32,693 nt of DNA from assembly GCA_021797495.1 (NCBI GenBank), contig JAJZZO010000001.1:47533-80225 (forward strand). The letters run 5' to 3'. This document shows, in pieces, positions 22,344 to 32,693 of this stretch. The notes beneath the pieces were generated by a model, which was not told where the DNA came from, made no database searches, and saw nothing but the letters and a program-made list of their open reading frames with translations. Position 1 is the first letter of the stretch. The number at the start of each line of letters is the position of its first letter. This DNA is from Microcaldota archaeon. GTDB lineage: Archaea; Micrarchaeota; Micrarchaeia; Micrarchaeales; Micrarchaeaceae. A program made the position numbers and the translations under genes.

Positions 22344-22353
22344 CTATTTATAA
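22344..22353 (+). promoter_or_regulatory. TATA box before the C/D sRNA and EXO5-like gene
   Basis: CTATTTATAA with its centre about 27 bases before 22376. The predicted transcription start therefore coincides with the first base of box C of the sRNA candidate, and the nuclease mRNA would carry or overlap the sRNA. Confidence 0.6.
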
Positions 22354-22375: not shown

Positions 22376-22430
22376 ATGATGAATGAGGTAATCGCTGAGC
22401 TAAGGCTATGACGATAGGTAGGCGGGCTGA
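22376..22430 (+). ncRNA. C/D box guide sRNA candidate targeting 16S C1402
   Basis: Box C ATGATGA (22376-22382), 12-base guide, box D' CTGA (22395-22398), 9-base spacer, box C' ATGACGA (22408-22414), 12-base guide, box D CTGA (22427-22430). Both guide spacers have the 12-base length typical of archaeal double-guide C/D sRNAs. In the second guide, GGTAGGCGG (22417-22425) is complementary to nine contiguous bases of the 16S in this window (E. coli 1399-1407). The fifth base before box D (22422) pairs with C1402. The first guide (ATGAGGTAATCG) has no target in the visible rRNA. The 3' half overlaps the first codons of the nuclease gene; C' contains its ATG. Confidence 0.7.
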
Positions 22431-23381: not shown

Positions 23382-23405
23382 AACATGGAATGCAATATAA
23401 AAAGT

Positions 23406-24677
23406 ATGGACTGCGTAAGGGCATACAAGTTCAGGCTATCTCCAGACAAAAAGAGGCAGGATGCGATAGACAATGCGCTCATTCTCTCTCAGCAACTCTA
23501 CAACAAACTCCTCGAAAAGACGATAGAGGCACATAAAAGGGACCCAGAATCAAAAATATCCCAAAGGACAATAAATCTGTTCATGAATGAGATACTCAAT
23601 GAGGATAAACGGTATTATGAATTGTATTCGCATGTTCGTGTAGACATACGAAACAGGATGTTGAGAACATACCAGAATTTCTTCAGAAGAGTGAAAGAGA
23701 AACACAACGGAAAGAAAATGAAGGCTGGCTTCCCACGATTCAAGTCAAGGGACAAATACAAGTCAATAATGCACATAGAGAACAACAGCTCGTTCTCAAT
23801 AGAGAAAGACAGATTGAGGATTTCAAAGATAGGAACTATGAAGATAATTCAGCACAGGAATATCGAAGGAACTATAAAGACACTAACCATAAAGAAGGAG
23901 GCAGGAAACTATTATGCGATATTCATGACAACAAAGGAGGCTACCCCTCCTGAGATAAAAGACACCAACCCAATCGGCATAGACCTGGGGCTGAACAACT
24001 TCATCGCCCTCTCCGACGGGAAGACAATACAGAAACCAAAGTTCTTCAAGAAGAAGGCAAAGAGGATTGCGAGGTGGCAGAGGATAGTCGCAAGGAGGAC
24101 AAAATGGCAGGGAAGGAAGAAGGCAGAGAAGCAATCAAAGAGGAGGGAAGATGCAAAAGCGCATCTCTCCCAAGAATGGGCAAATGTAACAAACCAATCA
24201 AACGACTTTGCGCACAAACTTGCAGACTGGCTCATAAATTCAGGATATACCTCATTCGCGGTAGAGAGACTCGAAATAAACAACATGGTAAAGAACCATA
24301 ATCTTGCACAATCGATATATAACGCTTCGTGGAGAAAATTCATAGATTTCCTCTTATACAAGGCTGAAAGTGCTGGTATGAGAATGGTAAAGGTGGATCC
24401 AATAGACACTACGCAGGAATGCAGCAGTTGTCATAACGTAAAAAGAGGGAAAGAGAAACCGACTCTGAAGGACAGAGTATACAACTGCTTTGTCTGCGGT
24501 CTGGTAACGGATAGAGACATAAACACATCAATAAACATACCCAATAGAGCTAGGGAGGGGCACTCCCGAAGTCACGCTCAGGGAGATACGACCTCTGCAG
24601 TGCAACATGCACTGAAAAGTCGAGTCGACGAACTGAGAACTGTAAAAAATATCTTTTCTGGTGCAGTCCATGTATGA
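23406..24677 (+). CDS. tnpB: TnpB RNA-guided nuclease
   Basis: 423 residues from ATG 23406. Order: N-terminal WED/REC-like region (RAYKFRLSP, FPRFKSRDKYKS), then a split RuvC nuclease with D193 (GIDLGLNNF), E287 (FAVERLEINN) and D371 (DRDINTSINI), interrupted by a zinc ribbon C339-x2-C342 and C361-x2-C364. All catalytic and zinc residues are present, so the nuclease should be active, cutting DNA matching a guide carried by an RNA made from the element's right end. ATG 23406 is chosen because GTATATAAAC is centred about 27 bases upstream (leaderless); ATG 23385 is possible. Its stop overlaps the present alaS start by 8 bases. Confidence 0.92.
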   Translation: MDCVRAYKFRLSPDKKRQDAIDNALILSQQLYNKLLEKTIEAHKRDPESKISQRTINLFMNEILNEDKRYYELYSHVRVDIRNRMLRTYQNFFRRVKEKHNGKKMKAGFPRFKSRDKYKSIMHIENNSSFSIEKDRLRISKIGTMKIIQHRNIEGTIKTLTIKKEAGNYYAIFMTTKEATPPEIKDTNPIGIDLGLNNFIALSDGKTIQKPKFFKKKAKRIARWQRIVARRTKWQGRKKAEKQSKRREDAKAHLSQEWANVTNQSNDFAHKLADWLINSGYTSFAVERLEINNMVKNHNLAQSIYNASWRKFIDFLLYKAESAGMRMVKVDPIDTTQECSSCHNVKRGKEKPTLKDRVYNCFVCGLVTDRDINTSINIPNRAREGHSRSHAQGDTTSAVQHALKSRVDELRTVKNIFSGAVHV

Positions 24678-32317: not shown

Positions 32318-32482
32318 TCTTACACCTTTGTGGATTGTTTATGTGAAGCAAATTATAAAAAACTTTATCGGAGTGCATATTCTCATGCAGCGCTCACGCT
32401 GGATTAAATTAAAAACAAAAATTATTGTAGTCTTGAGGATTTATGCAGGTACCGATGTCTATGGCCCGCACACTTTTATTAT

Positions 32483-32693
<211 letters not shown>

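Follow-up and report, generated by a model that had tools for sequence, protein, structure and literature searches.

C/D box sRNAs of Archaea, such as Pyrococcus sR2 and sR44 in Rfam, have a common box layout, 12-nt guides, a short D'-C' loop and a TATA box of their own. In yeast, the guide for Cm1639 of 18S rRNA is snR70. That residue, Arabidopsis 18S Cm1645 (addressed by the C/D guide AtU43) and P. abyssi 16S Cm1369 are all equivalents of 16S C1402 in E. coli numbering (PMC11542601, tables 1 and 2). Bacteria modify the same residue (m4Cm1402) with RsmI and RsmH (PMC5053481; PMC11542601), which are protein-only enzymes and, unlike the sRNA described here, use no guide RNA. No modification is listed at the C1402 equivalent of H. 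volcanii (PMC2584109). Dual guides have also been described: Nanoarchaeum equitans sR15 and sR17 address opposite strands of helices 30 and 28, so that one RNA reaches two 16S targets that are distant in sequence and near in structure (PMC4644070).

Here, we report on a conserved C/D box sRNA gene in a Microcaldota archaeon (family Micrarchaeaceae), encoded within a 32,693-nucleotide stretch of contig JAJZZO010000001.1 (hereafter, the window). Its kind and its target are known already, given the C/D sRNAs and the Cm1402 sites above, including the Pyrococcus entry. It has the common archaeal layout, but its guides and its conservation throughout a class are its own. By position, it reaches the same rRNA residue as the yeast, Arabidopsis and P. 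abyssi guides; those read the standard sequence, whereas this guide follows a variable decoding site. Like the N. equitans RNAs, it appears to have two 16S targets. One is the 5' strand of helix 44 and the other is the free 3' tail, and many families share this arrangement. Our literature search found no paper on C/D RNAs in Micrarchaeota and none joining a C/D box sRNA with the anti-Shine-Dalgarno tail. As far as the literature found shows, what therefore appears new is this family of RNAs, its distribution across the class and its co-evolution with the rRNA, with the Pyrococcus guide compared by position only. We estimate a probability of roughly 0.88 that positions 22376-22430 are a genuine archaeal C/D box guide RNA gene with C1402 as its target. 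The features are as follows, in positions of the window:

22347..22352, + strand: TATA-box-like element TTTATA, 29 nt 5' of box C
22376..22430, + strand: C/D box sRNA, entire (box C to box D), 55 bases
22376..22382, + strand: box C, ATGATGA (RTGATGA in nearly all relatives)
22385..22393, + strand: D' guide core GAGGTAATC, pairing with the 16S 3' tail GAUCACCUC with one A.C mismatch at N+5 (22390)
22395..22398, + strand: box D', CTGA (CTGA or CCGA in nearly all relatives)
22399..22406, + strand: D'-C' loop with a short GC...GC stem (some relatives have a longer, compensated one: GCCCATTCGGGC, GCGAATTTCGC)
22408..22414, + strand: box C', ATGACGA, whose ATG doubles as an ORF start codon
22408..23301, + strand: exonuclease-V-like PD-(D/E)XK nuclease ORF, overlapping the sRNA (Pfam Exo5, E 3.4e-41)
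22417..22425, + strand: D guide GGTAGGCGG, complementary to 16S 1399-1407; N+5 is 22422
22427..22430, + strand: box D, CTGA (from the sequence and relatives)
32482..32693, - strand: 3' part of the 16S rRNA gene (Rfam RF01959, 186 bits)
32484..32492, - strand: candidate D' target GAUCACCUC in the 16S 3' tail (E. coli 1530-1538)
32603..32611, - strand: D guide target CCGCCUACC, 16S C1399-C1407; C1402 is 32608

Gene structure, host locus and distribution

An earlier note, made from the letters of the window alone, had proposed the boxes, their spacings, the position of the guide and its rRNA match, and every coordinate was recovered as claimed. Box C is separated from D' by 12 nt, D' from C' by 9 nt and C' from D by 12 nt, and both guide lengths (12 nt) are kept in relatives. 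As in archaeal C/D box sRNAs generally, there is a terminal box C (RUGAUGA) and box D (CUGA), whose core is invariant in relatives, together with internal C' and D' boxes that accompany guides of about 12 nt; the D guide is complementary to rRNA with its N+5 position paired, at C1402. The strict double-module pattern TGATGA-12-CTGA-(3-24)-TGANGA-12-CTGA had a single match in the window, whereas 100 dinucleotide shuffles produced no match. The TATA box that the note had placed before the sRNA is present as listed above, and a TATA-like box lies between -36 and -22 of box C in 43 of 125 relatives (8.4 expected from shuffles), with enrichment at -27 to -30. Single-strand folding of the sRNA gave nothing stable beyond shuffles; the absence of a stable fold is usual for C/D RNAs. 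An Rfam search of the sRNA found no family at threshold, with weak matches to sR2 (26.7 bits against a threshold of 42), sR44 (19 against 45 bits) and sR3. Fibrillarin is encoded in the organism's own genome (G000:C19:36566-37210, E 1.2e-77).

The overlap with the nuclease ORF, which the earlier note did not describe, is such that in this genus the ATG of box C' is the start codon; the first nine or so codons come from box C', the guide and box D, and the D guide is translated as GRRAD. The exonuclease-V-like gene was found in 58 of 60 relatives, and a complete C/D element lies 5' of it in 42 of the 50 relatives in which upstream DNA was read, whether or not the element overlaps the reading frame. 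Downstream in the window, a TnpB-like gene (IS605 OrfB/Cas12f-like; 23385-24677, + strand) ends within the start of an alanyl-tRNA synthetase ORF at 24661.

We built a covariance model (R1) with the D guide replaced by N, avoiding circularity. This masked-guide model scores the present element at 65.3 bits (E 1.4e-13) and detected the RNA in 166 of the 245 genomes in a sample of the phylum, with matches in some 20 families of the same class outside the order. Covariance-model and pattern searches found no copy in several relatives (G010, G012, G020 and its genus, and G031), and the D guide has decayed in two more, G008 (L097, L173) and G097 (L266). The RNA is therefore not essential. In the two genomes with a decayed D guide, the boxes and the D' guide are intact, which suggests a function of its own for the D' guide. 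A pattern search of genomes lacking the locus found no D guide relocated to another RNA; three one-mismatch D-guide matches in such genomes came without box C and D' modules.

About 1.4 kb before the window lies another conserved C/D sRNA (G000:C4:46041-46093, L186; also L179, L183, L184 and L185). Its D guide is GATCTTGAGTG, and the complement CACTCAAGATC resembles the anticodon loop of tRNA-Leu(CAA), with C34 at N+5.

The D guide and the decoding site

The letters of the D guide are identical to the + strand at 32603-32611. Because the 16S gene is read from the - strand, this identity amounts to complementarity with nine contiguous rRNA bases, as had been claimed, and the N+5 base 22422 pairs with 32608, which is C1402. 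The organism's own 16S is represented by its last 212 bases, with the contig ending at 80225. When we scanned aligned 16S sequences from 30 genomes with the register fixed at N+5, the D guide scored highest at C1402 (8.05; runner-up column, 6.07). The decoding site itself is altered, as the earlier note had it, but the alteration is not this organism's alone: C1406-G1495 replaces U1406.U1495 throughout its family and in most of a sister family. The U1406.U1495 pair is near-universal in the decoding site. The further claim that the guide would not fit a standard rRNA holds in part, since five Watson-Crick pairs in a row (1399-1403) would still form at a standard site.

Covariation was assessed in the 91 genomes in which the RNA and the decoding site could both be read. 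A single register holds throughout, in which the guide pairs with 16S 1399-1407 and C1402 is at N+5. The rRNA varies at 1400, 1404, 1405 and 1406, and the guide varies alongside. At N+3, opposite 1400, the rRNA-guide pairs are C-G in 71 genomes and U-A in 7, with A opposite U1400 in 7 of 7. At N+7, opposite 1404, they are U-A in 55 and C-G in 20; A faces U1404 in 55 of 55 genomes and G faces C1404 in 20 of 36. Position 1405 forms A-U (16 genomes), G-U (52) or G-C (19) with N+8, G1405 being opposite C or U. Position 1406 forms C-G (56) or U-A (27) with N+9, where A faces U1406 in 27 of 27 genomes and G faces C1406 in 56 of 64. The guide had been said to fit its lineage, which is mostly so, although 14 relatives with C1404 retain a guide A opposite it and so carry a mismatch. 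The Watson-Crick fraction was 0.83 in register, against 0.17 to 0.51 in slid registers. When guides were permuted among distinct combinations, the observed pairing score was reached in 0 of 5000 permutations (3 of 5000 for the organism's own family alone). Together with the shuffles of the strict pattern, this rules out a chance motif, and the earlier judgment that coincidence was unlikely stands.

Changes were also mapped on a 16S tree built without the target columns. Guide changes went in the same direction as the rRNA changes or did not occur, and never went in the opposite direction; the change C1400U requires at least four events. This tree result is supportive without being significant, because no one site provides enough phylogenetically independent pairs for a sign test to reach significance. 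Taken together, the alignments support co-evolution of the D guide with the decoding site across dozens of related species, as the earlier note had anticipated for this locus.

Two features of the covariation bear on what the pairing is for. N+5 is Watson-Crick paired in 79 of the 91 genomes, this one included, and about 10 genomes have an A facing C1402 at N+5 while the flanking pairs still track the rRNA. Under the usual rule these 10 or so would not methylate, given that Dennis et al. regard a site with a mismatch as not modified (PMC4644070). Pairing may therefore be kept for its own sake, apart from methylation. In addition, no fully matching guide (N+2 to N+10) occurs among 35 genomes with C1404, the GC-rich form of the target, against 24 of 54 with U1404 (Fisher test, 8e-7); among distinct combinations the figures are 0 of 23 and 5 of 15 (P = 0.006). 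The mismatch position differs between families, and of 87 mismatches 65 set an A against a C. The pattern looks like a ceiling on duplex strength, with the number of independent lineages behind it being modest.

Relatives also vary at 16S 1404 and 1405 with compensation at 1496 and 1497, and several lineages have U for C1400. In five genomes (G014, G036, G040, G080 and G153), the 16S match is broken at the same place (query position ~47) by a few hundred extra bases, and the break looks like an intron.

The D' guide and competing readings

The D' guide, whose match the earlier note did not mention, has the core GGUGAUC, or GGUAAUC in most of the organism's own family, and complements GAUCACC in the 16S 3' tail. 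In the register-fixed scan of 30 genomes, D' scored best at 16S column C1533 (8.14; runner-up, 5.79). In nearly all genomes the tail retains seven to nine Watson-Crick pairs and no more than one mismatch; the exceptions lose N+2 and N+3 and still have seven in a row. A G at N+10, which extends the pairing to C1538, is present in 56 of 56 guides with an imperfect core and in 10 of 70 with a perfect core; this association is inflated by relatedness, and within the organism's own family five guides with a restored core have lost that G. The 16S 3' tail is thus the probable target of the D' guide, held below certainty because isolated 8-base matches to rRNA are not rare. In this genus, pairing with the tail is conserved with an A.C exactly at N+5, which makes a second methylation doubtful.

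A competing target for D' lies in 23S rRNA near the P loop (CGGUUACUUU, approximately E. coli 2258), where three genomes (G001, G023 and G027) can form ten pairs, three of them G-U, with N+5 paired A-U, and where N+5 is a G-C pair in two genomes whose 23S base is C (G015 and G089). This site would accumulate numerous wobbles and mismatches in other genera, unlike the 16S tail, and we judge it the weaker alternative and rather unlikely. Far less probable is a reading that takes the conserved stretch for part of the exonuclease-V-like mRNA, either a leader or regulatory element or no more than the N-terminal codons, and its resemblance to a C/D RNA for a coincidence. The start codon within box C' and the GRRAD reading of the guide in this genus could be taken that way, but the element stands 30 to more than 1400 nt upstream of the nuclease gene in three relatives (G055, G059 and G018) and occurs in one genome (G024) that has no nuclease gene, with all boxes intact in each. 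Where sRNA and gene are apart, protein homology begins at about residue 9 to 13, and it is the rRNA rather than the protein that guide changes track. The leader-only or coding reading is refuted as the main explanation by the elements that stand apart from the gene.

A more serious contender accepts the RNA and its pairing with the decoding site but gives it a different main job: a pairing chaperone that would prevent helix 44 and the 3' tail from coming together before late assembly, with C1402 methylation secondary, or absent in some species. Such a role for dual guides was already proposed by Dennis et al. (PMC4644070, section 11). It would account for the genomes with covarying flanks and a mismatched N+5, for the D' guide of the organism's own family, which mismatches N+5 but retains its pairing length, and for the lack of full matches to C1404, which suggests a limit on duplex stability. 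The Watson-Crick N+5 in most genomes, including this one, speaks against it, as does the 2'-O-methylation of C1402 in bacteria, yeast and plants (PMC11542601). We regard the chaperone reading as possible but clearly less likely than a guide RNA for C1402, and guidance of a methyl group onto that residue remains very likely.

Proposed mechanism and significance

From the conserved RNA gene, its fixed register on C1402, the covariation and the fibrillarin gene, all of which are direct observations, we infer the following course of events. A TATA box belonging to the sRNA, at the 5' edge of the exonuclease-V-like gene, would drive its transcription, and the RNA would form an RNP with L7Ae, Nop5 and fibrillarin. 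The D guide would pair with the 5' strand of 16S helix 44 (1399-1407), placing C1402 at N+5 for 2'-O-methylation, and the D' guide would pair with the 3' tail of the same 16S molecule at about 1530-1538, the anti-Shine-Dalgarno end. While the small subunit matures, one RNA could then hold the two sequences on either side of helices 44 and 45. More speculatively, the RNA might act throughout the class as a clamp on the two sides of helices 44 and 45, the decoding site and the anti-Shine-Dalgarno tail, and so serve as a checkpoint in assembly. Duplexes would be kept from exceeding a certain strength, and pairing would persist even where a mismatch at N+5 rules out methylation; we offer this tentatively.

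The sRNA is of an ordinary kind; what is unusual about it is how good its co-evolution record is. It extends the likely guidance of Cm1402 to an archaeal phylum with tiny genomes. In it, nature appears to have left a clean record of co-evolution between a guide RNA and its target. The site concerned, the decoding site, is among the most conserved places in biology; here even C1400, a contact of the P-site tRNA, changes, and the guide follows. Because guides are matched, mismatched or lost according to lineage, one may ask without engineering whether selection acts on the methyl group of C1402 or on the pairing.
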